Positions 30,884 to 45,937 of a DNA stretch of 64,000 bases are shown piece by piece; position 1 is the stretch's first letter, and each line of letters starts with the position of its first letter. Origin of the DNA: Anaerolineae bacterium (GTDB lineage: Bacteria > Chloroflexota > Anaerolineae > 4572-78 > J111); assembly GCA_023382535.1 (NCBI GenBank), contig JAHDWA010000018.1:115618-179617 (forward strand), given 5' to 3'. The notes under the pieces are model-generated. The model searched no databases, was not told the origin of the DNA, and worked only from the letters and a program-made list of their open reading frames with translations. The translations under genes and the position numbers were made by a program.

Positions 30884-31741
30884 TTACGTGGCAAAATACG
30901 CTTTTAATGCCTCTTGCCAGGGCCTCAACTCGATGCCCAATTCCGCGCCCCTGGTGTTAGCCAGAGGTGTGAAGGGGGGCACGGTCGAAGGGCGGGGATA
31001 ATCGGCCAGGGTGATCGGCTCGACGGGAATCTGCCCGCGGCCGCTGAGGCGGAGGATTTCTTTGGCGAAATCATAGCGGGAGCAGTAACCGGCGTTGGTA
31101 AAATGGTAAATCCCATAGATGCGCGTTTTGATCAGTTTGGCAATGGCCTCGGCCAGATCGGGAGCGTAGGTAGGATTGCTCACTTCATCGGTCACAATGC
31201 GCAGCGGCCTGCCGGCATCCGCCGCGGCCATGATTTTCGACGGGAAATTACGGCCTCCCGGCGAAAAGACCCAGGCCGTCCGCACAATATACAACCCGGT
31301 TTTGAGGTAGCGAGCGGCCATCTGTTCGCCGGTGCGCTTGGAGCTGGCGTAGGGGTTGATCGGGTTGGGCCGGTCATCTTCCCGGTAGGGCCGGTCGCTC
31401 CGGCCATCGAACACTTCATTGGTGGAGATGTAAACCATCTCGGCATTGCAGCGCAGGCAGGCATGAGCTACATTCTGCGTGCCAAAAGCATTGATCTTAT
31501 AAGCGGCATCGGGATCGGCGGCGCACCCGTCTACATTAGTCATGGCGGCGCAGTGAATGATCAATTCCGGTCTGAGCGCGGATAACTGCTGGACGATGGC
31601 GTGATCGGCCACATCAAATTTAGAAGTTAGATCGGTTCCATCAAAATCAGGGATTTGGAGGATCGGCAAACCCTGGTCAGTCAAAACCTTTTGCAGCGCC
31701 TGGCCTAGCTGGCCCGACGCGCCGGTAATAATAATCCGCAT
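30884..31741 (-). CDS. dTDP-4-dehydrorhamnose reductase-like protein (RmlD family)
   Basis: A 285-residue extended SDR. MRIIITGASGQLGQAL is the NAD(P)-binding start (GxxGxxG), followed by IIHCAAMTNVDGCAADPDAA, YISTNEVFDGR and the catalytic Tyr/Lys in NPYASSKRTGEQ (YxxxK, about residue 128). The WVFSPGGRNF and HFTNAGYCSRYDFAKEI segments are typical of RmlD, which makes dTDP-L-rhamnose for cell-surface glycans. No rmlA, B or C gene is adjacent, so another dTDP- or UDP-sugar could be used. ATG 31741 is preceded by GAGGTGTTT; an in-frame earlier codon adds residues of heptamer-repeat origin and is unlikely. Confidence 0.83.
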   Translation of the reverse strand: MRIIITGASGQLGQALQKVLTDQGLPILQIPDFDGTDLTSKFDVADHAIVQQLSALRPELIIHCAAMTNVDGCAADPDAAYKINAFGTQNVAHACLRCNAEMVYISTNEVFDGRSDRPYREDDRPNPINPYASSKRTGEQMAARYLKTGLYIVRTAWVFSPGGRNFPSKIMAAADAGRPLRIVTDEVSNPTYAPDLAEAIAKLIKTRIYGIYHFTNAGYCSRYDFAKEILRLSGRGQIPVEPITLADYPRPSTVPPFTPLANTRGAELGIELRPWQEALKAYFAT

Positions 31742-31768
31742 AAACACCTCAGAATTGTAAAAATGTAA

Positions 31769-31876
31769 CCCGCATGACCGCTGACGGCAGAGTGCGTAGC
31801 CTCCCCTTGGGACCGCCAACTATCTCTAACTGCATTGTAAATATCTCTTTTCGGTGGTCATCGGTCAGCGGTCGTT
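31769..31876. repeat. Inverted repeat with heptamer units (GACCGCTGAC / GGTCAGCGGTC)
   Basis: ATGACCGCTGACGG at about 31773 is mirrored by GGTCATC-GGTCAGC-GGTCG at about 31856-31876. The units match the in-gene island at 49021 (GGTCAGT, GGTCCGG, GGTCGGC, GGTCACT). It fills the gap between the phosphatase-like gene and the RmlD-like gene. Confidence 0.6.
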
Positions 31877-31877
31877 T

Positions 31878-33653
31878 TTATAAATGCAAGCCCGGCAAAG
31901 CATCCGATTTGGCGCGGGCGCGACTTTCATCCAGACGGCGGCGAGTCAGATTGACAAACAAGTTCAAGGTCATGATCGGCCAGGGAAGAAGTATGCCCAA
32001 AATGGCGGCAATCATCGTCTCAAGCAGGGCGGTGATCTGCCAGAAGGCAGGCAGAATGGCCGGCAAATACCAGGTGACGGTCAAGCCGTTTTGCCAGAAA
32101 GCCCAAAAGAGCGGCAGGGCAAAAATAAAAGTGACCAGCAGGCCGAAGCCGTAGCCGGTACTTAACAGGGTCAGCCAGTCCTCTTCGCGAGCCAGCATCA
32201 GCATGATCAGCATCAACCCGCCCCCGGCCAGCAGGCTGACGGCCGTGCGGCGGGCAATGTCGAAGGGCCATGCCGAAAAATCTCTCAGCGCGCTGACCGA
32301 GTAGCTGTGTCCCTGGAGTTGGTACAGCACATGATATAAACCCACCGTCAGCAGAGCGGCAATTAGAATGGAGCCGGCCTGCATTCCCCGCCGCCGCCAC
32401 ATTACCGTGAACCAAACCAGCAGAATAATCAGAGCGACGATGAGCCGCAACCACTGCCCCGCCGCAACCCGGCGATGCCGGGCGGCCAGCATAAAGGCAT
32501 CAGCCTCTTGTTGGGTCAATAAAGCCAACTGAAAAGCCCCGCTGATGTTACCGGCAGCCAGGGCTGACCGGGCGCGCTCCAAACCGGCCGGGATAGTTTC
32601 CGGCAGGGCTGCCGGCAGGCCCTCAATCTGGCTGACGTATGCTTGAGCCAGAGGCAGGCGCTGCTGGGCCAGGGCAAGTTGAGCCAGGGCCTGACCCCGT
32701 TCATCCAGGCGCAGCAGTTCAAACAAAATTCGGCCCTGACTGGCCTTGGGTATCCCCAAACCGAGCAGAGCGGCCACCGTGGGGGCAATATCCGTTTGGT
32801 GAATATCGCTGTAGCTGCCGGGAACAACACCCTGACCAATGACTACCAGCGGCTGCCAGATCACCTCAACTTCGTTGCCGCCATGACCACCATCGGGAAT
32901 ATGGCCGTGATCGGCCAGGACGATGAGCGTGGAACGGCTAAGGTCCATGGCCTGGCTGATTTGCCCCAGGTAGGCGTCAACCTGCCGGGCGGCCTGGAGG
33001 TAAGCTTCGCTCCCAGCGCCAGGATTTTGGCCGGCCCGGTCTACCTGGGTAAAATGGACAAGCGCCAATTGGATCTCGTCATTGGTTACAACGGGCAGGG
33101 CAGCTTCTATGATCGCCGCATCGGCTTCGGGGCCAGCTTGGGCGGCAAAATAGGCGTAATCGAGCTGATTGCGCGGGACTAATCGCCGCCACGTGGCGGC
33201 ACCCAGGAGCGCCGTTTGCAATCCGGCGTCGTGAGCGCGAGCGAAAATTGTATCAACCGTCAGGAGGCGCAAATCTTCTATGGGCAGGTCTACCGGAGGG
33301 GCATCGTTGGTTTCTGGCGGAGCGCCGGTAAGCAGTGTAGCCCAGGCTGTTTGCGAGTACGTCGGCGGTGTGCTTTCTACGGCCATGTCCGCCCCCGCTT
33401 GCCGCAGTTGTTCAAGGGCGGGCAGCCCTAAGGTCAGCGAGGCATCGTAACCTAAGCCGCTGATCAGTACAACCACCACCTTGGCGCTCTGAGGGGCCAA
33501 AGTAGTTTGGGGAGATAGGGCGGCCTCTCTTAGCGGAGACCGATAATTTTGGATCGAAGTAAAAAAGGCTTTGCCCCACCAGGCTGTCCCAATAATAACT
33601 CCAGCCAAAACGAGCAGGCTCAGGCCAATAGAAATATATTTTTTCTGCGTCAT
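31878..33653 (-). CDS. Membrane-bound alkaline phosphatase/phosphodiesterase family protein
   Basis: A 591-residue protein. One N-terminal helix (about 7-27) exports an alkaline-phosphatase-superfamily domain: VVVVLISGLGYDASL with the first metal Asp position changed to Ser/Gly surroundings, TPPTYSQTAWATLLTG with a likely nucleophile Thr/Ser, LVHFTQVDRAGQNPG, LIVLADHGHIPDGGHGG (DHG metal site, about residue 250) and DIHQTDIAPTVAALLGL. Thus a type I phosphodiesterase/nucleotide pyrophosphatase-like or phosphoglycerol transferase-like hydrolase is likely. About four helices follow near 405-570. The substrate is unknown. The DNA has TGGTATAAT just upstream of ATG 33653, which suggests a leader of only a few bases. 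Confidence 0.78.
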   Translation of the reverse strand: MTQKKYISIGLSLLVLAGVIIGTAWWGKAFFTSIQNYRSPLREAALSPQTTLAPQSAKVVVVLISGLGYDASLTLGLPALEQLRQAGADMAVESTPPTYSQTAWATLLTGAPPETNDAPPVDLPIEDLRLLTVDTIFARAHDAGLQTALLGAATWRRLVPRNQLDYAYFAAQAGPEADAAIIEAALPVVTNDEIQLALVHFTQVDRAGQNPGAGSEAYLQAARQVDAYLGQISQAMDLSRSTLIVLADHGHIPDGGHGGNEVEVIWQPLVVIGQGVVPGSYSDIHQTDIAPTVAALLGLGIPKASQGRILFELLRLDERGQALAQLALAQQRLPLAQAYVSQIEGLPAALPETIPAGLERARSALAAGNISGAFQLALLTQQEADAFMLAARHRRVAAGQWLRLIVALIILLVWFTVMWRRRGMQAGSILIAALLTVGLYHVLYQLQGHSYSVSALRDFSAWPFDIARRTAVSLLAGGGLMLIMLMLAREEDWLTLLSTGYGFGLLVTFIFALPLFWAFWQNGLTVTWYLPAILPAFWQITALLETMIAAILGILLPWPIMTLNLFVNLTRRRLDESRARAKSDALPGLHL

Positions 33654-33902: not shown

Positions 33903-36900
33903 ATGAACAATATAGCAGAATTAGAAAATCGCTATCAACGTTTGTATGGCGACTTTCAAGCCGGCAAAATTGATGAAGCAGTGTTCATTGCCGAGGTGGA
34001 CAAGCTGCAATTTCAAGATGGCCGGGGTCGCTACTGGATGATGGGCGCGCAGAGTGGCGCGTGGCATTATTATGATGGCCAGACCTGGCACCAGGCTGAC
34101 CCCCGAGACGCCGACAACCTACCCTTTGTAGATGAGCAGGGCCGCTATTGGCAGCGGGGCGCTAAGAGTGGCGACTGGTATTACTATAACCCCGAAACCA
34201 AAGAGTGGGTCAAACCCAGCCCTACCGGCGACTCCCGCCCCACCCCGATTGTGGGCCGGGGAGAAGGCCAGAACAGATGGGCCGATACCGGCTCGATACC
34301 AGCCCAATCACAACCTTATCAATCTCACCTGTACCCTCAAAGTGCCGATAATGGACCTCAATTTGACGGCGAACTATTCCAGGATGATGAGGGCCGTTAC
34401 TGGGCCATCGGGACCAAAACCGGCCAGTGGTATTTCTATGATCATGCAGGCTGGCATCCAGCGCAGGAATTCCAGCCGGGCGGCACACAGTATCAGCAAC
34501 AATCTCAATCCTATCAGCCTTACTATTCTCAATCGCCACAGACGCCGTATCAAGCGCAGCAGCCATGGGGGGCATCTGCTTATGGAGCTCCTCCTTATCA
34601 AGCGCAAGGACCACAAGCTTATGCTTACCCGCCGCAACAACCGGCTTATCAACAGCCCGCCCCTGGACCAACCTATAACCCCCCGCCCGGGCAGGAAGCT
34701 CAGTCCGGCCAGCCAGCTCAGGGATATGCCGGTCCATTTCAATCGCAGCCAGCACCTGCTCCTACCGGCGACGCCGGCCCAACCCCAATGCCAGCGCCTC
34801 CCGGTGGTGGGTCTCAATCCGGCTCCTGGTTTTACTTTGATGGTAAGCAGTGGCTGAAATATGCGTCGGGCGAACCTGCCGAAACGCCGCCGCCCGATCC
34901 CAAAATGGTGATAGACCAGGAATCAAAAGCTGCATCGGAACCAAAAGCGGCTGCAGCCGAACCAAAAGCTAAAGATGAGCCAAAAGGCCAAGCAGTTGTA
35001 GCTGAACTTTTTGAAAGTGACGAGCCACCGGTAGAAGTGGTTGATGTTGAAGTCATCACCGTTCTCGAGGCCGAGCCGGACGAGGATGAGGAACCGGCAG
35101 CCAAGCCGGTCAAGGCTGCCAGCAAGGCCAAAGAGCCGGTTTCAGCTCCGCCGTTAGCCGATGTTGACGATATCAAACCCCGGCGACCCCGGCAGCCTTC
35201 GGACTCTATGCGGGCCCGCCCTGCGCCAGGTGAGCCTCAACAACAGTTCAGAGATCGAATTCCTACCGACCCCGGCCGGCCGGTTGCCCCGCGGCGGCGC
35301 GAGTCGGCTTACGAGCCGACCATCATTATCCCGACCGGAGCCGCTGCTTCTCCAAGGGCCAGCCGTCCGGTTCCGGTGCAGCAACAGCAGCCCCGCCGTG
35401 CTCGTGAAAATACCCTACCCATGGAGCCTGTTCCGGCTCAATCCGGCGCTGCCAGACCAACCCCTGACCGCCAAGCTGTCACCCAACCTCTGCCCGTAGC
35501 CAGCCGTGTCCAGCGGGCTGAAACGGGACCGATGAGAGCGCCGGCAGTCGCCAAAGAGCCTACCCAGCCAAATCCGCTAGCCGCTCCAATCCCGGCCAGC
35601 CAAGCGGCCGCATCTGCCCAGCCCAAAACATCTGGTCACACCTTTGGCGACGTTTTACGCGCTTTTCCCAGCACTGTCTGGACTTTTACCGGAGGATTAA
35701 TCGTCCTGGTTATCTTTGCGGCGGTGATTATCGGCGCTTATCTGCTGCTTAACGGCAATAATCCGAGTGTGGGCGGCGTAGCGGTTGTTCAAAGCCCGAC
35801 GCCTACCCTGGATGCCGGCCCACCTGACGCCACGCCAACTCTTGGCCCCACCCCAACGACCTCACCGGAACCCGTCACTACCCCAACTCCGGCGGAGATG
35901 ACAACCTTCAGTAGTTCTGCCCTGGGCTTTACGCTGGATTATCCGGAAGACTGGCAGAAAAAAGAGGCCGATGAACAGGTTGTCTTCTCGCCCTCGAAAG
36001 ATGGCCTTGACCCGGCTAACCTTAAAGATACGGCCCTATGGATTGGCATCCCAACCAGCAACAAGTCGGCTATTGCCGACCTGCTGACCGACGCCTTATC
36101 CGGTTTTCCTGGCGATGCTGAAACTTTGAATGAAGGAACCATTAGTATTGCCTCACAAACCTGGACCTCGACCCAAATCAGATATAAAGATGATAATCTG
36201 GGCGGTCAGGGTATTGCGACCATAGCGGTTACCAGCAAAGATGATACCGGTTATTATCTGGTAGCGGCGGCTCCGGCTGAAAAGTGGAATTCGACCCAAC
36301 CTGTATTTCAGGAAATGATCAACAGCTTCCGCTTCTCCAAAAAAGGGACAGCGTTGGCGCAAGCGCCGGCCGACAAAACACCTTCGAGCAGCAGCGCTAT
36401 TACGGCCACTGCAGAGATAACTGGCACCGTGACAGCAGCCAAAGCGACAACCCCGGCTGCCACGACCTCGGCAGGGGGAGCCAAAGCAACAGCCGTGCCC
36501 AAGTCAACCCCTACCCCCAAAGCGACGGCGACGCCGCTGGTTTACGCTGTTCAATCGGGTGATACGCTGCTGGAGATCTCGCTCAAATTTGGCGTTAATG
36601 TGGATGAACTAGCGGCTAAAAATGATATCACCGATCCCGGAAAATTGAGCCTGGGCCAGGAATTAATTATTCCTTTTACGGCGGAACAATTGGAGGCATA
36701 TAATAGCGGCGGTAATCCTGCGCCGGCGGCAAACTCTTCAGCGTCTGCTCAAAGCGAGTCCGCTGCCGCCTCTGCAGCTATTACTACTACGACGACGGTT
36801 ACCAATACGTCTACCCAAGCCGAGGCTGCCGCCCCTCCGGCGGCCCAAGCAACCAAACCCGCCTCATCTGGCGCTGCTGCTGCGGTGAGTGGGCGGATCG

Positions 36901-37721
36901 TTTATGCTGCGTTCAATCCCGGCACCAACACTTTTGATCTGTGGCTGGCAGATGTAGCCACGGGCGAACAAACAGGCATTGCCAGCAGCGCCAGCCAACC
37001 GGCCTTCAATAAGGATGGCAGCCTCTTGGCTTATCGTTCCTGGCAGATTGATACCCGAGGTATTTTCTTTAGAGATTTTATCGGGGGACGCGGTGGACAG
37101 GTGACTCGCTTTGTGGAGGATGGCTTGCCGACCTGGGCCCCCGACGGCATCTCATTCGCCTTCGCCACACGGCGTGAGGGAGACCGAGTACCCCGCATCT
37201 ATCGGGGCGACCAATTAGGCAAAGGGGACTTCTCTATCGGTTTCCAGGGCGAATACCCGGCGACGCTGCCTGATGGCCGCCTGGTGGTACGTGGCTGCCT
37301 GCCTTCGGGAGATTGTGGCATATTCATTGTTGGCCCCAATGGCGGCGGTGAAACCAAGATCAGCAGTGAACGGAGTGACACGGCCCCGTCCCCCTCGCCT
37401 GACGGTAGTAAAATTGCCTTTATGTCTTCAGGCCGAGGTGGGACCAACTGGGAAATTTGGGTCATGGATGCAAGTGGGAGCAACCCGCGCCGCCTGACCG
37501 ATAATGGCAACAACGACGGTCTGCCTACCTGGTCACCTGACGGTAAAAGTATTGCCTATGTTTCGGATGCCGGGGGCGCCTGGGCGATTTGGGTGATGAA
37601 TGCAGATGGCAGCAACCAACGCAAGCTGTTTGATATGAAAGGTACGCCGGATGGTTATGTTCTGCTTGACAAGGATAATTCCAAGGGCTGGTTAGAAGAG
37701 CGCATCTCCTGGGCGCCTTAA
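33903..37721 (+). CDS. Giant transmembrane protein: WW-like repeats, PsbP-like, LysM and TolB-like propeller
   Basis: A 1272-residue protein of unknown function. Cytoplasmic part: four aromatic repeats of about 30 residues (GRGRYWMMGAQSGAWHYYDG; EQGRYWQRGAKSGDWYYYNP; DEGRYWAIGTKTGQWYFYDH; GSQSGSWFYFDGKQWLKYAS) separated by Pro/Gln/Tyr-rich linkers. Then a long Pro/Ala/Glu-rich stretch and one helix at about 591-617 (TVWTFTGGLIVLVIFAAVII). Outside: a PsbP-like domain (about 668-814, LGFTLDYPEDWQKK), a Thr/Ala linker, LysM (about 880-925, YAVQSGDTLLEISLKFGVNV) and a TolB-like propeller to the end (SPDGSKIAFMS, SPDGKSIAYVSD). It ends WLEERISWAP, like the kinase downstream (WTEERMSWGQ). The start is uncertain; in-frame ATGs at 33849 and 33889 have no well-spaced ribosome site. 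Confidence 0.8.
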   Translation: MNNIAELENRYQRLYGDFQAGKIDEAVFIAEVDKLQFQDGRGRYWMMGAQSGAWHYYDGQTWHQADPRDADNLPFVDEQGRYWQRGAKSGDWYYYNPETKEWVKPSPTGDSRPTPIVGRGEGQNRWADTGSIPAQSQPYQSHLYPQSADNGPQFDGELFQDDEGRYWAIGTKTGQWYFYDHAGWHPAQEFQPGGTQYQQQSQSYQPYYSQSPQTPYQAQQPWGASAYGAPPYQAQGPQAYAYPPQQPAYQQPAPGPTYNPPPGQEAQSGQPAQGYAGPFQSQPAPAPTGDAGPTPMPAPPGGGSQSGSWFYFDGKQWLKYASGEPAETPPPDPKMVIDQESKAASEPKAAAAEPKAKDEPKGQAVVAELFESDEPPVEVVDVEVITVLEAEPDEDEEPAAKPVKAASKAKEPVSAPPLADVDDIKPRRPRQPSDSMRARPAPGEPQQQFRDRIPTDPGRPVAPRRRESAYEPTIIIPTGAAASPRASRPVPVQQQQPRRARENTLPMEPVPAQSGAARPTPDRQAVTQPLPVASRVQRAETGPMRAPAVAKEPTQPNPLAAPIPASQAAASAQPKTSGHTFGDVLRAFPSTVWTFTGGLIVLVIFAAVIIGAYLLLNGNNPSVGGVAVVQSPTPTLDAGPPDATPTLGPTPTTSPEPVTTPTPAEMTTFSSSALGFTLDYPEDWQKKEADEQVVFSPSKDGLDPANLKDTALWIGIPTSNKSAIADLLTDALSGFPGDAETLNEGTISIASQTWTSTQIRYKDDNLGGQGIATIAVTSKDDTGYYLVAAAPAEKWNSTQPVFQEMINSFRFSKKGTALAQAPADKTPSSSSAITATAEITGTVTAAKATTPAATTSAGGAKATAVPKSTPTPKATATPLVYAVQSGDTLLEISLKFGVNVDELAAKNDITDPGKLSLGQELIIPFTAEQLEAYNSGGNPAPAANSSASAQSESAAASAAITTTTTVTNTSTQAEAAAPPAAQATKPASSGAAAAVSGRIVYAAFNPGTNTFDLWLADVATGEQTGIASSASQPAFNKDGSLLAYRSWQIDTRGIFFRDFIGGRGGQVTRFVEDGLPTWAPDGISFAFATRREGDRVPRIYRGDQLGKGDFSIGFQGEYPATLPDGRLVVRGCLPSGDCGIFIVGPNGGGETKISSERSDTAPSPSPDGSKIAFMSSGRGGTNWEIWVMDASGSNPRRLTDNGNNDGLPTWSPDGKSIAYVSDAGGAWAIWVMNADGSNQRKLFDMKGTPDGYVLLDKDNSKGWLEERISWAP

Positions 37722-37760
37722 GCTTGAATTCAGTAAGCTTCAATGAGGGCAGTATAAAAT

Positions 37761-37789
37761 GTAGGGGCAGGTCTTAGACCTGCCCCTAC
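37761..37789 (+). terminator. Hairpin after the giant transmembrane protein gene
   Basis: GTAGGGGCAGGTC at 37761-37773 pairs with GACCTGCCCCTAC at 37777-37789 (13 bp, three-base loop). No U-tract follows. The GGGGCAGGT/ACCTGCCCC stem is shared with the terminator at 23677. Confidence 0.6.
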
Positions 37790-37811
37790 TGCGTCCCTCC
37801 CAATTGTCTTA

Positions 37812-37840
37812 TTGACGCATCCCTGGCGGAATGTTATAAT
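37812..37840 (+). promoter_or_regulatory. Consensus sigma-70-type promoter for the kinase gene at 37874
   Basis: TTGACG (37812-37817), a 17-base spacer and TATAAT (37835-37840) form the best promoter match in the window. A start near 37847 gives a leader of about 27 bases. It means this kinase is transcribed separately from the gene before it. Confidence 0.8.
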
Positions 37841-37873
37841 GCGCGTATCCTTTGTTAAACTCGCAGGTAACGC

Positions 37874-40414
37874 ATGGCGGATTTAGTCGGCAAGACTGTA
37901 GGTAAATATCGCATCGTAGCCAGGTTGGGTCGAGGAGGCATGGCCGAAGTTTATAAAGCCTACCAGCCTGGCCTGGATCGCTACGTCGGCATCAAAGTTC
38001 TGCATGCCCACCTTGTTGACGACACCGATTTTATCGGCAGGTTTGAGCGAGAGGCCCTGGCCGTCGGAAAACTGCGCCATCCCAACATTGTCCAAGCCGT
38101 TGATTTTGACCGTGAAGGCGATATGTACTTCATGGCCATGGAATTTATTGACGGTCCCACCCTTAAAGATGAATTAAAAGCCCGCCGCGCTGAAAATAAA
38201 CCCTTTACCTTGAAAGAAATCGCCCGCATTTTTACGGCACTGTGCAGTGCGATAGATTACGCGCACTCGCGCAAGATGGTTCACCGGGATTTGAAGCCAG
38301 CCAACGTGATGATCAACCAGGAGGGCGAGGTTGTCCTGACCGATTTTGGTATTGCCCGGATTCTGGGTGCGACCCAATATACCCAAACCGGCGCTTTATC
38401 GGGCACACCCGCGTATATGTCGCCGGAGCAGGGGCAGGGCGAGCGCGGCGACGAGCGCAGCGATATCTACTCTTTAGGTGTTATGCTTTATGAAATGGTC
38501 ACCGGCGTAGTTCCCTACGACGGCGATACTCCCTTTGCCGTTATCATGAAGCATATTAGCGAACCGTTGCCGCTGCCAACGCGGGTTAATCCCAATATCC
38601 CCGAAAGTATTGAGCGGGTCATCCTCAAGGCGATGAGCAAAAATCCGGAAGATCGCTACCAAACCGCCGGCGAGATGGCCAAGGCCTTGCGCGATGCTAT
38701 TGGCCTGGTTCCTGGCGAGGAAAACTTGCCGCTTCCCGTCGTGGCCCCCAAGCCGCAAATTCAGCAAATTGATCATACCACCGGCTTTGTCACCGCGGCT
38801 GAAAAGGCCGCGATGATGACCGCCGCTGATGGCGGCGGAGTTACAGTGGTAACACCCAATACTACAACCGGCACCCTCATCACCCCCGCAAAAGGTGGAT
38901 TATCTCTGCCACTTATTATTGGGGGTTCAGTTGTTCTGCTGGTCTTGATTGGCATTATTGGCTTTTTTGCCTTTGTCGCTGGAGGTGGGTCGGGCCGAGC
39001 GACCGAAACGGCTATTGCCATGTTGAATGCGACTCAAACGGCAGTAGTAATCGTCAATGTAACTGAGACGGCTGAGGCTGCGGTTCAGGCGACAGAAGTG
39101 GCCCAGGTGAACGCTCAGGCCACAGCCGATGCGGAAAGCGCTGCTCCTACCCAAACGGCGGCAGCGGCCATCGCTCAAGCCGAAGCGACTGCCGCGATGC
39201 AAACCGCAGTGGCTCAGGCTGCTGAGGGTGTTATTTCGGCTCAAAATGCAACAGCGACGGCCGGCGCCCTTGCGCTTGCCGCTACTAACGACGCCGTTAC
39301 GGCGGAGGCTCTGGCTAATGCGACTCCCACTCCGGCAGTGACAGATACTCCCGCCGCCACCGAAACTCCCACTGCTGTCCCGGCGACAGAAGCCCCTACC
39401 CTGGCCCCGCCTACCGAAACCCCTACTCTTGGTCCTCCGACCAATACACCCACTCCGGCGCCCCCTACTGATACTCCTACTCCTGAGAGACCGGCTATAT
39501 CCGGCAAGCTGGCTTTTCCTGTTGATAATGGTTCCGGCAGGTATGATGTTTTTATTTACTCTGTCCCCGATGGGGGGCAATTGGGCAAAATTGAAGGTGC
39601 TCGCCAGCCCAACTTCCGGCTCGATGGAGTCAAACTGCTTGTTAACGGCCAGGGGAGTGGTTTTGGCGAGAACGTAGCGCAAGCTAATCCGAACGGTAGT
39701 ATTGACGGGCAAGTCAGCGGGGCGCCGCAGGACTCTTTTCCATTCTACAAACCCGATGGCTCGACCCTGACCTACAGCAATCCGGAATTAGCCGTGGGGA
39801 GCGACGGTAACCGGCATGACTACTTGTTTGTGCAGTGTAGTCTCAGGCCGCCCAGCCAGGAGAGCGATAAGTGCGTAGAAATGAGTCAATGGAACCTGAT
39901 TGTACCGGCAGGACAGGTCGGTGAGGTTCAGGGGCGTAAACCAGTCTGGACGGCGGGTGATCGGCTTGTTTATAGTGGTTGTAATAGTTGGGCTGGCGGG
40001 GGGTCTTGTGGCATCTTTGGCGTTGGTTCATGGGCAACCAAACGAACCAGCGGGGGAGAGACGCCCGTCAAGCTGGTGGACGGAGCCAGCGCCTTCCCGA
40101 CTGATACCAAAAATGGGTTGGTTGCTTTCCAATCGAGCGAGAGCGGCAACTGGGAAGCTTACGTTATGGCCGAAAATGGCGCGGGCTTGGTTAACATCTC
40201 GAACAGCCCTAACTCCAGTGACGGCCTGCCAACCCTATCGCCGGATGGCCAATGGGTTGCTTTTGTCTCAGACCGTGAAGGGACCTGGGCTATTTTTGTG
40301 GCTCCCATAGGCGGTGGTCCGGCCCAAAAGTTGTTTGACTTTCCAAAGCCTAACCCCTGGGGCGCGGGTGGAGGTCGGGATTGGACCGAGGAACGCATGT
40401 CATGGGGCCAGTAA
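37874..40414 (+). CDS. Receptor Ser/Thr protein kinase with extracellular TolB-like propeller
   Basis: An 846-residue transmembrane kinase of the PknB type. The kinase domain occupies about 11-275: Gly loop RLGRGGMAEVYKA, VGIKVL (Lys), HRDLKPANVM (catalytic loop), DFGIARI, and TPAYMSPEQ (activation segment), all intact. A helix at about 342-370 is followed by an Ala/Thr-rich region with repeated NATQTA/NVTETA-type units, a Pro/Thr linker and then, instead of PASTA domains, a TolB-like propeller (about 545-846; SPDGQWVAFVSDREGTWAIFV). The C-terminal WTEERMSWGQ matches WLEERISWAP of the preceding protein. A strong promoter is 34 bases upstream and a bidirectional terminator follows. Confidence 0.92.
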   Translation: MADLVGKTVGKYRIVARLGRGGMAEVYKAYQPGLDRYVGIKVLHAHLVDDTDFIGRFEREALAVGKLRHPNIVQAVDFDREGDMYFMAMEFIDGPTLKDELKARRAENKPFTLKEIARIFTALCSAIDYAHSRKMVHRDLKPANVMINQEGEVVLTDFGIARILGATQYTQTGALSGTPAYMSPEQGQGERGDERSDIYSLGVMLYEMVTGVVPYDGDTPFAVIMKHISEPLPLPTRVNPNIPESIERVILKAMSKNPEDRYQTAGEMAKALRDAIGLVPGEENLPLPVVAPKPQIQQIDHTTGFVTAAEKAAMMTAADGGGVTVVTPNTTTGTLITPAKGGLSLPLIIGGSVVLLVLIGIIGFFAFVAGGGSGRATETAIAMLNATQTAVVIVNVTETAEAAVQATEVAQVNAQATADAESAAPTQTAAAAIAQAEATAAMQTAVAQAAEGVISAQNATATAGALALAATNDAVTAEALANATPTPAVTDTPAATETPTAVPATEAPTLAPPTETPTLGPPTNTPTPAPPTDTPTPERPAISGKLAFPVDNGSGRYDVFIYSVPDGGQLGKIEGARQPNFRLDGVKLLVNGQGSGFGENVAQANPNGSIDGQVSGAPQDSFPFYKPDGSTLTYSNPELAVGSDGNRHDYLFVQCSLRPPSQESDKCVEMSQWNLIVPAGQVGEVQGRKPVWTAGDRLVYSGCNSWAGGGSCGIFGVGSWATKRTSGGETPVKLVDGASAFPTDTKNGLVAFQSSESGNWEAYVMAENGAGLVNISNSPNSSDGLPTLSPDGQWVAFVSDREGTWAIFVAPIGGGPAQKLFDFPKPNPWGAGGGRDWTEERMSWGQ

Positions 40415-40434
40415 TCAGTTTCATCTTCTAAACG

Positions 40435-40475
40435 AAAAAGAGCCACCTCAGCAATTAGTTGAGATGGCTCTTTTT
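40435..40475. terminator. Bidirectional terminator between kinase gene and roadblock operon
   Basis: AAAAAGAGCCACCTCA (40435-40450) pairs with TGAGATGGCTCTTTTT (40460-40475) with one mismatch. The A/T tails give a U-tract in both directions, so it serves both convergent genes. Confidence 0.9.
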
Positions 40476-40489
40476 GATTTAACACACCT

Positions 40490-40882
40490 TCAATCAAAAA
40501 TAGAAGCAATGGTGTTGGCCGCCTGACGCATTGACAGAGTGACCAGACCCAATTTAGCATCCGCAGGAATTAAGACGGCCAGAACGGTATGAGTCCCGGC
40601 GTTGACCACCACCGTTGTGCGATTTTCTCCTTCAAGCAGGATACGATTGAGCCGGCCCTGCTCTAAACGACCACTAAACTCTTCGGCCATATCAATCAGA
40701 TCGGAAGCAACCAGCGCCACCGTGTCATCATCTTCATGGGGAATCCCAGAAGCCACATTCAAACCATCATCGCTTACAACCAAAGCACTGAGGATGTCAG
40801 GGTTGTGTGAAACCAGCTCATCCAGAACTTCCCGCAAAAGCTGGTTGTTATCTTTTGGTTTTACCTCATCTGCTCCGGTCAT
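40490..40882 (-). CDS. Roadblock/LC7 domain protein, second of pair
   Basis: A 130-residue roadblock/LC7 (MglB-like) protein, which usually dimerises and acts on a small Ras-like GTPase or a kinase pathway. The family order is clear: helix LLREVLDELVSHNPDIL, strand SALVVSDDGLNVASGIP, the helix VALVASDLIDMAEEFSGRL, then RILLEGENRTTVVVNAG, THTVLAVLIPADAKLGLV and the final helix MRQAANTIASIF. No GTPase is encoded nearby. It overlaps the first roadblock gene start-stop (ATGA-type) and so is translationally coupled. A bidirectional terminator ends the operon. Confidence 0.88.
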   Translation of the reverse strand: MTGADEVKPKDNNQLLREVLDELVSHNPDILSALVVSDDGLNVASGIPHEDDDTVALVASDLIDMAEEFSGRLEQGRLNRILLEGENRTTVVVNAGTHTVLAVLIPADAKLGLVTLSMRQAANTIASIFD

Positions 40883-41295
40883 CAGTTACCACTGCCCTCT
40901 AAAATACTGCTGATTTTTCCAGCACTTTGCTGCAAAGCGTAAAGGACCAGGCCCATTTTTGCCTCTCGTCCGACCATCACGGCCACGGAAGCGCGGCGGT
41001 TAGCCGGCACAACCAACATTCCCCCATCGTTCCCTTCTACCAGCAGGCGGATCATCTCCCCCTGAGCTAAACGGGAGAGAGTCCGTTCACCGAGGGCAAT
41101 AAGCGTTGCGGCCATCGCTGCTACCTGCGGGCTGCTGGTCGGCCCTTCTTCGTCCATCTCGCTCTCATGGGGGGTGTAAGCGGCTACTACAAAACCTTCG
41201 ATACTGACGATCACTGCTCCTTGCACCCCTTCTAACCTAGAACATAATTCTTTGAGTGCTTCTTCAAGAAGATCAGTTTTGTAGACTTGAACCAT
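40882..41295 (-). CDS. Roadblock/LC7 domain protein, first of pair
   Basis: A 137-residue roadblock/LC7 protein. The pattern LLEEALKELCSRLEGVQGAVIVS, then EGFVVAAYTPHE, MAATLIALGERTLSRLAQGEM and RLLVEGNDGGMLVVPANRRAS and VMVGREAKMGLVLYALQQSAGKISSIL fits the fold. It shares only the fold pattern with the second copy, which suggests a heteromeric pair. The ATG abuts the stop of the preceding small gene. Surrounded on both sides by receptor Ser/Thr kinases, it may act in the same signalling pathway; this is inference from position. Confidence 0.88.
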   Translation of the reverse strand: MVQVYKTDLLEEALKELCSRLEGVQGAVIVSIEGFVVAAYTPHESEMDEEGPTSSPQVAAMAATLIALGERTLSRLAQGEMIRLLVEGNDGGMLVVPANRRASVAVMVGREAKMGLVLYALQQSAGKISSILEGSGN

Positions 41296-41583
41296 TCAAT
41301 CTTCCATTTCTTGTTCAATAATGTGCCGGAGTGCCGCCAATTGAGCCTCTACCTCCGCCAGAGATTGGTGTTGAGTGTGGCTGCGAATTAAATCTAGAAT
41401 ACCGTTCAATTCTTTTTCCAGATTTTTAAAGATTTCTTCGCGTTCGGTCTGAAACTCTTTATAATCTGAAACGGGCAATATCGTCGCTAAGGCATGCCCT
41501 TTAAACTCAACAGTAAAGGGGTGGTTGTCAAGCAGTATTTTAGAAATCTCGTTAATTATATTCTGCTTAACCTGACTATCCAT
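41296..41583 (-). CDS. Small helical protein leading the roadblock operon
   Basis: A 95-residue acidic protein of unknown function. The first half (QNIINEISKILLDNHPFTVE, then FKGHALATILPVSDY) has a beta-strand pattern vaguely like Phd/YefM antitoxins, and the second half is a likely coiled coil (REEIFKNLEKELNGILDLIR ... EAQLAALRHIIEQEME). No toxin gene is adjacent, so I do not call it an antitoxin. It is the first gene in a three-gene unit with two roadblock genes, abutting the next. A promoter (-10 at 41786) lies about 200 bases upstream, leaving a long untranslated leader. Confidence 0.7.
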   Translation of the reverse strand: MDSQVKQNIINEISKILLDNHPFTVEFKGHALATILPVSDYKEFQTEREEIFKNLEKELNGILDLIRSHTQHQSLAEVEAQLAALRHIIEQEMED

Positions 41584-41785
41584 GACTATTTTTGATCTCG
41601 AGGAGCAGGGTTGGTTTGCTGAGTTTTTATTTAAACCCTAAAACGGACCCTGGCAGGCACAATGAGTTCTTGTCCCAGATAGTAGAACTTACAACCCGGT
41701 TACGAAATGCAGTTCTAAACCTCAATACCAAGCAAGGTTTGTTTGTACAGCGGAATTTTTTAAGGAGGCCTGACTTGATAATCTG

Positions 41786-41814
41786 ATTATATCTCACAAG
41801 CTGGATGAGGGCAA
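41786..41814 (-). promoter_or_regulatory. Probable promoter of the roadblock operon
   Basis: On the minus strand TTGCCC (41814-41809), a 17-base spacer and TATAAT (41791-41786). The implied leader before ATG 41583 is nearly 200 bases with no ORF that I can support. This, the terminator at 41857, and unassigned sequence fill the 332-base gap 41584-41915. Confidence 0.55.
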
Positions 41815-41856
41815 TAGGATGGTGTAACTAATATCAGTTTTTTGAGACAAAACTAT

Positions 41857-41896
41857 AAAAACGGTATGTCTATCAGGTCGTAGACACACCGTTTTT
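41857..41896 (-). terminator. Intrinsic terminator of the 44747 kinase gene
   Basis: AAAAACGGTATGTCTA (from 41857) pairs with TAGACACACCGTTTTT (to 41896), with one or two mismatches and an 8-base loop. Both strands have a U-tract. It lies 20 bases after the stop codon of the minus-strand kinase. Confidence 0.82.
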
Positions 41897-41915
41897 TAAA
41901 TAAGAAGTAGTAACC

Positions 41916-44747
41916 CTAAGGAACCCAGACAAATGTTCTGATCTTGCTCTGCAAGCTAACAGGCAAATCAATGTTGTTATTAGAGAAAGCAGTCGTATTC
42001 GCTTTTCTAACCGTCACATACCAGCGAAAACGATCACCTCCTGCCCGTCCCACTCCTATATCGGGTGGGATTTGGATCCGTGTTTCGGTGGTGGCTGTGC
42101 CCCAGTAAACAAAATCATTACCGAAAATGTACTGGATCGTCAGATCATAATACTCATCTGACGCTAATTGCCCCACAGGTTCCCACTCCAAGAAAACTTT
42201 GGTCAATTCTCCGGCAAAAAAGGCATCATCCGCAGGTTCCACCAGCTCAGGCTCTCCGTATTTGAGGGCGACTGCTTCAGGGGTTCTGCTCGGTGTTGGC
42301 TCAGGGGTTGGTGTAGATTCCACCTGACTCCCAACATTTTCCTCCGTTTCAACAGGTTGCGGCGTCGGTTGCGGGGGCTGCTGGCTAAATGAGAGCAGCA
42401 ATTCAGCTCGACGAGTTTGAGCCGCACTCGGATCGTCAACATTTAAGCCTAAAGCCGCTTCGTAATCGCTTAATGCACCAACGATTTCGGTAGATTCGCG
42501 CCGGGTATCCCCCCGTTTCAAATAGGCAGTATATAATAAGTCTTTGGCATCACCTCCCGCGTAATCAGGCTCTACTGCTACGACCGGGGTCAAAATACGG
42601 ATGAGGGCCTCAGGATCACTCGGTGGGGTATCAAGAGCTTGAAGGTAAGCCGTAGCTCGCTCGGTCTGATCCCGCAAATCGGTTCGACGGGGGCAGGCTT
42701 TGGCTCCCGCTTCAAAATCAGCCAGGGCAGTTTTTAGCTCTGTTTGTTTGTCTTTTGAATCAATATTGCTCAAGGTATCCAAACCTCTGGCAGCATAAGC
42801 ATCACATAGAAGCGAGGCAACCTGAGCTTTTTGGTAAGCGCCATCACGCGAACTGAGCGTGGTCAAAATCTCAATCGCCTTAGACCAATCCAGCCCATCT
42901 ACGGCAGCTTGAGCTTCATTTAACATGAGCGCCAAGGCGTCAGCGGTAGGAGTTGGTGTGGGGGCTAGCGTTGGGGTCGAGGTAGGAGCAGGTGTGGCTG
43001 TCGGGCTGGCAGTGGGGCTGGCGGTCGGGGTGGCGACAAGTTCCCGTCTAAGACTGGCAGCATCGGCGTAATCTGGATCCTCCTTCAGAATTTGATCCAG
43101 CAGGGCAACGGCCTGCTTTTGATTCCCATTAGCAATTGCCTGTTGAGCTTCTTCATAAAACAACTTTAATTGATCCCGGCCAATCTGATTATCTTCGGCA
43201 GCCGAAGGAACTAAATTGCCAAGCGCCGCCAGGACCAGAACAAAAATAGCCACAAGACCCACGGCAATTAAACCCCAGCGCCAGACCATGTTCTGGGCCA
43301 TGGTTTGGGTCAACTTCTGGCCTAATGTTGGATTGTTGAAGCGTTCGGCCTGGGCTAAGAGCTGGTCAACCCGCTGGTAGCCGGGCGAGAGATTTTTAAC
43401 ATCCTGAAAAGCTTCAATGGCGCTGCTCCAACGCCGAGCTTCAAAAAAAGCCATCCCTTCATTGTAACGAGTAATGACCAACTGCCGGCCATTTTCTATT
43501 TCCAGGGCGCGGCGAGCTTCGACCAACAATTTGCCGGTATCTTCAAAGTTTGGTTCAATTTCAATAATGCCGGTGAGATTATTAATCGCCTCTTCCCACT
43601 GGTTCTTTTTCATCGCTCGCTTGGCGGCATTATAAAGGGAAATTAAAAAGGCTTCTTGTTCGGCTTGAGCCAATTTTTGGCGAGCTTCAGGATGGGCCGG
43701 ATCAAGCGTGAGGGTTTGGTTCAATAAATCAGCGGCGCGGGCCCATTCTGCTACCTTCATCGCATCCAATGCCCGCTGAAAAAGACTCTCAGCCAGCAGG
43801 GCCGGATCAAAAGGAACAACGGGCTGGGTATCAAAGGAATGATCCGGGACAGGTTTGCCGGCCAAAACAGCGGCGATAGCCTGGCGCAGCATGGTCGGCG
43901 TTTGGAAACGATCGCGCGGCCGCTTGGCAACCATACGTTTGAGCAGCTCACCGACATTGGCTGGAATGTCGCCCTCAGGTAGCTCGATGGGGGGTGGTTC
44001 ATTGGCAATGTGTTTACTGATAATAGACCAGGGGCTTTTGGCATCAAAGGGAATGCTGCCGCTCAATAGTTCGTACAGCACAATCCCGGAGGAATAAATA
44101 TCGGAGCGAATATCCACTTCTTCGCCCATAGCTTGCTCAGGCGAAACGTAATAAGGCGAACCAATAAAGCCGGATTGGGTGAGTGAGGGCAGGGTGGGAA
44201 TACGGGCGATGCCAAAATCAAGCACTTTGAGCAGTCCATCATCATTCAACATCATATTCTGCGGCTTGATGTCGCGATGGACTACCCCGTGCCGGTGGGC
44301 ATGTTCCAGGGCTGTAGCCAACTGGTCAATGACTTCGAGAGCCTCTTTCCAGGGAAACGGACCTTTGATATTGAGGGTTGTCCGCAAATCCTGGCCCTCG
44401 ATATATTCCATGATCAGGTAGTAAATATCGCGGTCAGCACCATAATCCAGAACCCGCACAATGTGCGGGTCGGTCATGGAACTGGCTAATTTAGCTTCGC
44501 GGTTAAACCGTTGGATGTAAGCTAAATCTTCGCCGAATTGCGGATATAAAATTTTGGCGGCAACAAGTTGGTTATCTTTGTTATCTTCGGCCAAATATAC
44601 CCAAGCCATACCCCCGCTGCCAATTTCGCGGAGAACTCGATAACGATTGCCCAGGATTTTGCCGATCAAGGTGCGCTCCTGCACTACACGGTAGGATAAT
44701 TTTTCGTCAGTTGAACGAGTGACCAGATCAAGAGAAGAGGCACGCAT
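41916..44747 (-). CDS. Receptor Ser/Thr protein kinase with TPR-like repeats on both sides of the membrane
   Basis: A 943-residue PknB-type kinase. Kinase domain about 33-295: EIGSGGMAWVYLAED, AAKIL (Lys), HRDIKPQNMM, DFGIARI and SPYYVSPEQ are intact. TPR-like helical pairs follow (about 315-470; EWARAADLLNQTLTLDPAHP, QWEEAINNLTGIIEIEPNF, RWSSAIEAFQDVKNLSPGY). One helix lies at about 486-512. The outer part has another TPR-like unit (KQAVALLDQILKEDPDYADA), a Thr/Pro/Ala linker, more helical repeats and a C-terminal beta domain starting near 840 (GEPELVEPADDAFFAGELTKV) ending RTFVWVP. TATAAT ends six bases before the ATG, suggesting a leaderless message. Its build differs from the 37874 kinase, so the two sense different signals. 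Confidence 0.9.
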   Translation of the reverse strand: MRASSLDLVTRSTDEKLSYRVVQERTLIGKILGNRYRVLREIGSGGMAWVYLAEDNKDNQLVAAKILYPQFGEDLAYIQRFNREAKLASSMTDPHIVRVLDYGADRDIYYLIMEYIEGQDLRTTLNIKGPFPWKEALEVIDQLATALEHAHRHGVVHRDIKPQNMMLNDDGLLKVLDFGIARIPTLPSLTQSGFIGSPYYVSPEQAMGEEVDIRSDIYSSGIVLYELLSGSIPFDAKSPWSIISKHIANEPPPIELPEGDIPANVGELLKRMVAKRPRDRFQTPTMLRQAIAAVLAGKPVPDHSFDTQPVVPFDPALLAESLFQRALDAMKVAEWARAADLLNQTLTLDPAHPEARQKLAQAEQEAFLISLYNAAKRAMKKNQWEEAINNLTGIIEIEPNFEDTGKLLVEARRALEIENGRQLVITRYNEGMAFFEARRWSSAIEAFQDVKNLSPGYQRVDQLLAQAERFNNPTLGQKLTQTMAQNMVWRWGLIAVGLVAIFVLVLAALGNLVPSAAEDNQIGRDQLKLFYEEAQQAIANGNQKQAVALLDQILKEDPDYADAASLRRELVATPTASPTASPTATPAPTSTPTLAPTPTPTADALALMLNEAQAAVDGLDWSKAIEILTTLSSRDGAYQKAQVASLLCDAYAARGLDTLSNIDSKDKQTELKTALADFEAGAKACPRRTDLRDQTERATAYLQALDTPPSDPEALIRILTPVVAVEPDYAGGDAKDLLYTAYLKRGDTRRESTEIVGALSDYEAALGLNVDDPSAAQTRRAELLLSFSQQPPQPTPQPVETEENVGSQVESTPTPEPTPSRTPEAVALKYGEPELVEPADDAFFAGELTKVFLEWEPVGQLASDEYYDLTIQYIFGNDFVYWGTATTETRIQIPPDIGVGRAGGDRFRWYVTVRKANTTAFSNNNIDLPVSLQSKIRTFVWVP

Positions 44748-44917: not shown

Positions 44918-45937
44918 TTACTCTTGGCGGAATTGCCAGTACAATTCGGGCTGGCTGGCTAAACGAGCCAAACGCCACTGCCAACCGGCCGGGTAGCCTA
45001 GCATTTTAGCAAGATCGCCCGTAATCCTGATGATGGGAATCCAGACAACGGCCTGGAGTTTTTCCATGAAGGAGAGATTTTGCCACAAGCGAGGCAAGCG
45101 GCGATAGGGAGTGTAAAACATACCGAGCGCACCCAAAATACCTCCCCCTACCCCCCACCAGGGCGAGACGCCTATCATCAAAATAAGCAAGAGAGGCAGC
45201 GCCGCCAGGTATGTGAGATAGCGGATGGCATGCCGTTTGCGCCATAAATCGGCCTTGCCGTCGCCGCGAGCATACTGGTAGTACTGTCTAAAGAAGGCCC
45301 GTAAACTGCCACGGGGCCGAAAATAAACCACGGCCTGGGGAGCAAAAGCGAAAGGTCCCACTTCCTCCCGTAAGCGAAAATCAAAAATCAGATCTTCACA
45401 GTAATCCAACCATTCCGGGTAGCGACCGGCTGCTTGCCAGCCTGACTTGAGAAAAGCAATGGAGCGGCTGCTGGGCAAAAAAGTGGCCGGGTTAATATCT
45501 GACAGGGCTGGCAGAACTGTAGCGCCCATCGCCACCTCAAAAGCTGTCTGCGGGTCGGGCACAAAAAAGCCGGATACTACGGTCACTCCGGGGTTAGCCC
45601 GGAACGGCTTGAGCAGTTCCTCCAGCCAGCGCGGGTCTAAACGGACTCCAGCATCAGTGCTGGCGATAATCGGCCCGGCTGCGGCCTCAATGGCGACGTT
45701 GCGGCCCCGGCTGATATTTGCCCCTGGTTCGATGATGACCCGCAGCGACATCCGCTGCGCCGAATACCGCTGCAAAACAGCAACCGTGTCATCGCTGGAG
45801 CCACCATCAACAAAGATGATTTCATCGGGGGGATGGGTTTGCTCGGCCAGGGAGTCGAGCAGCTTTTGGATAGCTGGCCCTTCGTTCAGGACCGTGCAAA
45901 TAACGGAAACTTTGACCACGGTGAAAATTTGAGGCAA
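44918..45937 (-). CDS. Glycosyltransferase family 2
   Basis: A 339-residue inverting glycosyltransferase with the GT-A fold. VSVICTVLNEGPAIQKLLDS, DEIIFVDGGSSDDT (nucleotide-sugar binding Asp pair), GANISRGRNVAIEAA and ASTDAGVRLDP (DxD-like metal site) are in order, with the acceptor region LDYCEDLIFDFRLRE (ED motif). Two hydrophobic helices at about 245-285 anchor it. It probably adds a sugar to an envelope glycan or lipid. The start is uncertain: TTG 45937 is used here, but GTG 45919 would remove six residues; neither has a good ribosome site. Divergent from the SH3 protein gene. Confidence 0.85.
   Translation of the reverse strand: MPQIFTVVKVSVICTVLNEGPAIQKLLDSLAEQTHPPDEIIFVDGGSSDDTVAVLQRYSAQRMSLRVIIEPGANISRGRNVAIEAAAGPIIASTDAGVRLDPRWLEELLKPFRANPGVTVVSGFFVPDPQTAFEVAMGATVLPALSDINPATFLPSSRSIAFLKSGWQAAGRYPEWLDYCEDLIFDFRLREEVGPFAFAPQAVVYFRPRGSLRAFFRQYYQYARGDGKADLWRKRHAIRYLTYLAALPLLLILMIGVSPWWGVGGGILGALGMFYTPYRRLPRLWQNLSFMEKLQAVVWIPIIRITGDLAKMLGYPAGWQWRLARLASQPELYWQFRQE

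Follow-up and report, generated by a model that had tools for sequence, protein, structure and literature searches.

The 64,000-nucleotide stretch of Anaerolineae bacterium DNA analysed here, referred to as the window, carries a gene cluster that is probably a composite envelope signalling island of one Anaerolineae group, combining a receptor pair (A-B), an independent receptor kinase (D), and an orphan roadblock adaptor (C2-C1). The conserved island is wider than first described: aside from A, B, C1, C2, C3, and D, it includes genes for an RmlD-like reductase, a phosphodiesterase-like membrane protein (PDE), and a family 2 glycosyltransferase (GT2). Its gene content, homology, motifs, hydropathy-based topology, synteny, and constraint were observed directly, and it would carry an envelope signal. 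The parts are of known kinds (orphan roadblocks and PD40- or TPR-linked kinases have already been described), and it is the arrangement itself that is new. Among open-licence papers on the topics of roadblock/kinase/Chloroflexi and Anaerolineae Ser/Thr kinase signalling, none describing this gene arrangement was found.

The island begins with the gene for the RmlD-like dTDP-4-dehydrorhamnose reductase (30884–31819, minus strand; Pfam RmlD_sub_bind, 4e-77). The PDE gene (31878–33653, minus strand) encodes a type I phosphodiesterase-like membrane protein from the alkaline-phosphatase superfamily (Pfam Phosphodiest, 1.6e-16) and is divergent from A (33903–37721, plus strand), which encodes a kinase-less membrane protein of 1272 residues according to its ORF, Pfam matches, and hydropathy. 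B (37874–40414, plus strand) is a Ser/Thr kinase with a PD40 propeller ectodomain. The roadblock operon had been predicted to have three genes, and it holds C3, C2, and C1 only, all on the minus strand. Specifically, C3 (41296–41583) encodes 95 residues with a Phd/YefM-like N-terminal half and a predicted helical-looking tail; C2 (40882–41295) encodes a 137-residue roadblock/LC7 protein (Pfam Robl_LC7, 4.3e-12), and C1 (40490–40882) its diverged tandem paralogue of 130 residues (Robl_LC7, 2.7e-14). D (41916–44747, minus strand) is a Ser/Thr kinase with its transmembrane segment flanked by TPR, and GT2 (44918–45937, minus strand) matches Pfam Glycos_transf_2 at 5e-24. PMT_2 and SH3 genes, of envelope type like RmlD and GT2, are located at the island borders. 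All six ORFs from A to D lie where the original prediction had placed them, and Pfam agrees with its account of a kinase-less 1272-residue protein, a propeller kinase, roadblock genes, and a TPR kinase.

The claim that the locus comprises four separate transcription units is plausible, because hairpins or promoter-like sites occur between the units. The A/B intergenic region contains a terminator-like 13-bp perfect inverted repeat (37759–37791), the convergent ends of B and C1 are separated by a bidirectional terminator-like hairpin (40433–40477; z −8.1 and −7.2 on the two strands), and a terminator-like hairpin 3′ of D (41855–41898, minus strand) parts D from the C operon. These three elements, the second on both strands, fold 6.6–8.1 sd below shuffles. 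A promoter match at 11 of 12 positions is located 5′ of B. Across the region, 18 promoter matches were observed vs 8.8 expected, and 21 terminator matches vs 14.1. Known RNA elements were ruled out, the window having 0 Rfam matches at gathering score. The dN/dS ratios of the six genes from A to D range from 0.005 to 0.27 against G001 and G004, with dS against G004 being saturated, and indicate purifying selection.

The relatives G001–G004 (loci L001–L004) were found by a scan with B and are MAGs labelled Anaerolineales or Anaerolineae, the latter being a class of Chloroflexota. In all four, A, B, C1, C2, C3, and D have identical order and orientation, with an inositol-monophosphatase gene inserted between C2 and C3 in G002. 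G271 keeps the island order minus C3, leaving 194 bp from D to C2. In G214, A-B-C1-C2-inositol-monophosphatase-C3 runs up to a contig end and D-GT2 start another contig, which fits but does not prove A–D adjacency across the break. Collinearity extends over almost all of the window in G001 and from 30884 to 52564 in G004. On the 76.8-kb contig of G002, the kept run extends from RmlD at 30884 to GT2 at 44918; the genes of 46019 and 47029 are displaced, and the rest of the window otherwise has one 32% match. Since G002 keeps just that run, the island is a block preserved amid changed surroundings, with RmlD, PDE, and GT2 belonging to it. The proteins PDE, A, B, and D are 52–66% identical to those of G002 and G003. 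In the D and PDE trees, the island genomes are near each other, not firmly in one clade (support 49/71 for D; two changes for PDE). As this grouping is weak, break-up of an older island in G224 and G165 is still conceivable. Elsewhere in the window, an FGGY carbohydrate kinase gene (13434–15101) has no counterpart in the otherwise collinear stretch of G001.

Outside the island group, the genes form three units: RmlD-PDE(-A-B), C2(-C1), and GT2-D. RmlD adjoins PDE in 16 of the 16 fetched PDE loci (with a 107-aa ORF between them in G165) and PDE adjoins A in 11 of the 16; the loci for such adjacency counts were picked for strong matches, not at random. PDE was matched in 92 of 298 sampled class genomes. 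These 298 are a sample of the class, the genomes being perhaps incomplete and many contigs short, and some places from the class searches with D, PDE, A, and B are those among the matches listed. In G253, a single 5.35-Mb contig has RmlD-PDE at 1.88, A-B at 2.35, GT2-D at 3.01, and C2 at 4.29 Mb, and in G224 three contigs carry C1-C2, PDE-A-B, and D, each among different neighbours. G165, G243, G055, and G194 also exhibit unit separation. Because the units are separate gene sets elsewhere, the group looks like a neighbourhood built from known part types. As to whether the units are neighbours in related genomes, they are so in five relatives on one contig, and G214 is compatible with this across its contig break, but they lie apart in the wider relatives G253 and G224.

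Protein A consists, in order, of an N-terminal domain with WW-like repeats, a Pro/Gln-rich tail, a transmembrane segment (598–616), a PsbP-like region, LysM, and a PD40 propeller. Pfam finds PD40 in three stretches (E 2.4e-27), LysM (8e-10), and PsbP (26.5 bits, cut-off 23.5). The WW-like motifs start at residues 35, 73, 158, and 307; true WW domains were rejected, as PF00397 gives 20.3 bits, under its cut-off of 26.9. Neither A nor B is TolB of Tol-Pal, their scores against the NCBIfam equivalog TIGR02800 being 110 and 40 bits vs a cut-off of 343. The TolB-like propeller proposed for both is therefore a propeller likeness but not TolB proper, and from the earlier description of A as a WW-repeat/LysM/TolB protein, LysM stands while WW and TolB fall under their cut-offs. 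The ORF could be extended upstream to 33744; the start at 33903 was retained because similarity to the G001 copy begins there. A has 72 database matches, the window's own protein counted in. It is best kept at both ends, with 69–76% identity for residues 1–70 (G002, G003, G271, and G214) and 74–76% for the propeller, and least kept in the Pro/Gln-rich linker (43–49%). Residues 1–70 (window 33903–34112) make up a short domain with a WW-like motif, and the proteins matching it vary in length. Residues 1–199, used as the N-terminal query, were matched in 55 of the 298 genomes. Their best hit among solved structures is a 16-residue stretch of designed proteins (3e-4), and none is a convincing relative. 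A B-type kinase adjoins A in 0 of 17 fetched distant loci with the A N-terminal domain, several of which are on short contigs; one of the 17 (L208) has a different kinase ~3.5 kb from A. A also occurs without a neighbouring B in G055, G243, and G263. These loci indicate that A can function without an adjacent B.

B matches Pkinase and PD40 in Pfam and has a single transmembrane segment (347–365) by hydropathy. The Lys, HRDxKPxN, and DFG motifs are all kept in B and D. With its catalytic motifs, one transmembrane segment, and C-terminal propeller repeats, B is a propeller receptor Ser/Thr kinase, the topology being derived from hydropathy alone. Its propeller is homologous to that of A, as the window B and the G001 copy of A share 29% identity over 316 aa (8e-25). 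The B ectodomain was matched in 116 of the 298 class genomes, and of the 14 fetched loci that carry an orthologue of the B kinase, 11 have A beside it, the exceptions being G243, G128, and G055. The propeller and the W..ER(I/M)SW ending that A and B had been said to share are both real, but the ending is not specific to the locus: it is found in 46 of 57 related propeller proteins, and the remaining 11 comprise nine with variant endings, one cut by a contig end, and one without the motif. The ending was hence rejected as a special bond between A and B. A and B are the likeliest working unit, with homologous ectodomains, a kinase on one protein, and a scaffold tail on the other. The propeller of B would sense outside and its kinase would phosphorylate inside. 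Outside, A would present its homologous propeller and LysM, and inside, its long scaffold tail bearing WW-like repeats. Where the two are paired, A is a likely partner (co-receptor) or substrate of B that may contact B and be phosphorylated. PknD of Mycobacterium tuberculosis, as described in PMC2877116, resembles B in having a kinase inside, one transmembrane segment, and a propeller outside. B differs in its PD40 propeller, which is widespread in Anaerolineae, and in its adjoining kinase-less partner with a homologous propeller. That source also lists PD40 and TPR as being among the most frequent partner domains of prokaryotic Ser/Thr kinases.

D matches Pkinase and TPR in Pfam and has a single transmembrane segment (492–510) by hydropathy. 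Without its kinase part it was matched in 34 of the 298 class genomes. Of the 16 D loci fetched, 11 have GT2 next to D, a count that excludes the D fragment of G128 and includes G181, where D is split into two ORFs; the exceptions are G224, G165, G052, and G016, and in G263 one ORF lies between GT2 and D. D, the second receptor kinase and of TPR type, would act independently and be tied to the glycosyltransferase. Each relative genome has 32–70 PF00069 matches, which corresponds to 1.1–3.0 kinase pairs within 6 kb by chance. Two nearby kinases are unsurprising in themselves; the conservation of their arrangement is surprising. One locus of G214 (L218:1666-17211) has six kinase-like ORFs in ~15.5 kb with one other ORF among them.

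C1 and C2 score 53.1 and 46.0 bits against Robl_LC7, well over the cut-off of 23. Constraint within the island is strongest on C2, which is 82–99% identical in six relatives, with dN/dS of 0.027 against G001 and 0.005 against G004, where dS is saturated. C3 is the least constrained (37–87% identity in five relatives; dN/dS 0.18 and 0.27). The C1 and C2 genes overlap at nine loci of relatives and by one base in the window; the tenth C1-C2 locus, that of G055, has a C1-like ORF with an ambiguous start. This overlap suggests coupled synthesis and a heterodimer. Among solved structures, the C1/C2 profile fits a further roadblock protein best, 9jue (4.8e-26); MglB (2.4e-4 or weaker) and the conservon roadblock cvnB5 are also among the solved relatives. 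The N-terminal half of C3 resembles the profile of the Phd/YefM antitoxin family, which 10 of 16 C3 homologues match at E≤0.1; the G214 copy reaches 35.2 bits (cut-off 29.8), but the window copy remains under the cut-off (14.2 bits, E 0.038), C3 heads a roadblock operon, and no toxin gene was identified among its neighbours. The best match of C3 to a solved structure is weak (E 0.018).

C2 was matched at E≤1e-10 in 116 of the 298 class genomes, and its subfamily, with a boundary of E≤1.7e-18 drawn by eye, has 41 places in 40 of them. As far as contigs reach, six places are the island and 35 are outside it, with varied neighbours such as LysR, TrmD, urocanase, a response regulator, and a metallo-beta-lactamase (Pfam was run on ten C2 neighbours, including two at island-type or C1-C2 loci). 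Of the 35 non-island places, one has a partial kinase ORF according to BLAST with B and D, ~9 kb off (G023). At six loci from six genomes (L075, L076, and L078–L081), an orphan C2-type gene lies directly downstream of one gene family, whose L078 copy is TrmD-like (tRNA_m1G_MT) and whose other five copies are related by BLAST. An inositol-monophosphatase-family gene is directly upstream of C2-C1 at L002:14675-15475, L063:10327-11139, and L062:6368-7156; such a gene adjoins C2 in G002, G214, and G224, and the window has none.

The C2-type roadblock genes do not follow an mglA-like gene: none of the 41 places in the 40 genomes, some of whose contigs are short, has an Arf-family match on the C2 contig at a distance of up to 10 kb. 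The nearest match is ~15 kb away, in a 440-aa ORF of G272, the distances having been read by eye from match listings. Hence C2 lacks the gene linkage typical of MglA-MglB, a roadblock gene close to one for a Ras-like GTPase. The search can detect linkage, since G003 (L158) and G004 (L157) have other roadblock genes that adjoin a Ras-like GTPase. At L157:8561-11612, the Ras-like GTPase is accompanied by three roadblock-like proteins and a protoglobin gene, and at L158:9182-11900 by four roadblock-like proteins; both clusters contain a DUF4388-roadblock fusion, and some of these roadblock-like proteins score under the Pfam cut-off. The missing neighbour was rejected as remarkable per se, since orphan roadblocks are common: PMC4316618 counts 328 of 749 MglB homologues as orphans.

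A question separate from the other rivals is whether C2-C1 acts as a regular MglB-type GAP on a GTPase with its gene at another site in the genome; we regard this reading as possible but doubtful. In its favour, MglB and cvnB5 are among the solved relatives, and 11 of the 14 C2 genomes searched with a Roc profile, all six island genomes included, have a match scoring over the cut-off. Against it, the C1/C2 profile matches 9jue far better than MglB, and the three tested genomes without a Roc match over the cut-off (G055, G113, and G254) also lack the roadblock-associated GTPase type, although these genomes are perhaps incomplete. That type was traced with the roadblock-adjacent GTPase of G004 as query. 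It has clear relatives (E≤1e-51, 45–100% identity) in just eight of the 40 C2 genomes, namely G003, G004, G271, G224, G185, G227, G008, and G282; the next matches have E values of 3e-8 or weaker and are mostly in long ORFs. The type is absent in the other 32, including three of the six island genomes (G001, G002, and G214). As it is found in only eight of 40, C2 is independent of this GTPase type, and another Ras-like protein may possibly be its partner in the island genomes. Arf-family matches are present in all 40 C2 genomes and include small ones, but they are no proof of a Ras-like GTPase, because PF00025 is not specific to that type and finds matches in 12 of the 14 control genomes as well, E. 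coli and B. subtilis among them. In G055, G113, G264, and G298 the Arf-family matches are confined to ORFs >350 aa. C2-C1 would thus be an orphan roadblock pair, probably a heterodimer, and more likely a non-GAP adaptor, as reported for MglC of Myxococcus xanthus, than a GAP of a linked GTPase.

Orphan MglB and MglC, as covered in PMC4316618 and PMC11112851, are similar to C2-C1 in being roadblock/LC7 genes unlinked to a Ras-like GTPase; C2-C1 differs from them in its tandem form and in a lineage with 0 of 41 places having an Arf-family match within 10 kb. PMC11112851 recounts that an orphan roadblock paralogue can no longer act as a GAP but does bind the coupled paralogue, and states that orphan roadblock changes altered gut colonisation by Snodgrassella. 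Conservons (cvnABCD) of Actinomycetota, as described in PMC4316618 and PMC13343842, also have a sensor kinase adjoining a roadblock gene. In contrast to the island, with its Ser/Thr kinases and no linked GTPase, a conservon has a histidine-kinase-like protein and a linked GTPase. The C operon was rejected as a conservon, as it contains C3, C2, and C1 only.

The composite reading holds that three separable units, RmlD-PDE(-A-B), the roadblock genes C2(-C1), and GT2-D, would have been combined. We favour it because the order is kept in G001–G004 and G271, and compatible in G214, while the flanks are shuffled and the units are separate elsewhere. All units may possibly make up one joint module, judging from sequence. 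That the island is one functional module, with both kinases signalling via C2-C1 and being linked by it to an envelope output, appears unlikely: the cluster is kept at 52–66% identity while its flanks are lost, and the envelope-type genes RmlD, GT2, PMT_2, and SH3 lie at the borders, but C2 is outside the island at 35 of the 41 places and other genomes have A-B and D at separate sites. The module interpretation of the original prediction survives in part, with conservation in one Anaerolineae group and no mglA-like gene before C2, but not in wider relatives, where the units are split up, nor at those 35 places of C2.

The opposite extreme is that the neighbourhood reflects descent alone, having arisen by rearrangement and been retained through inertia or common regulation, the units having no direct functional link. 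The independence of the units in outgroups, the promoter-like sites and terminator-like hairpins of each unit, and the kinase pairs expected by chance would all agree with it. Inertia, however, does not easily account for the intact island of G002, around which the window genes have lost synteny, and we consider this explanation improbable too. In a more elaborate proposal, the highly conserved C2 lineage and its diverged copy C1 would have been recruited to form a heterodimeric hub that needs no GTPase. This hub would connect the two receptor kinases, one of which has a kinase-less co-receptor with a matching ectodomain, and would control envelope polysaccharide synthesis in one Anaerolineae lineage; the proposal is speculative and quite unlikely.

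With the composite island as the preferred reading, its stepwise splitting across relatives shows accretion of signalling neighbourhoods. If the A-B pairing is true, it would provide a bacterial receptor kinase together with a kinase-less co-receptor that has a matching ectodomain. The C2 lineage is a defined, strongly constrained set of roadblocks without a neighbouring GTPase gene, and offers material for the study of GTPase-independent roadblock roles.
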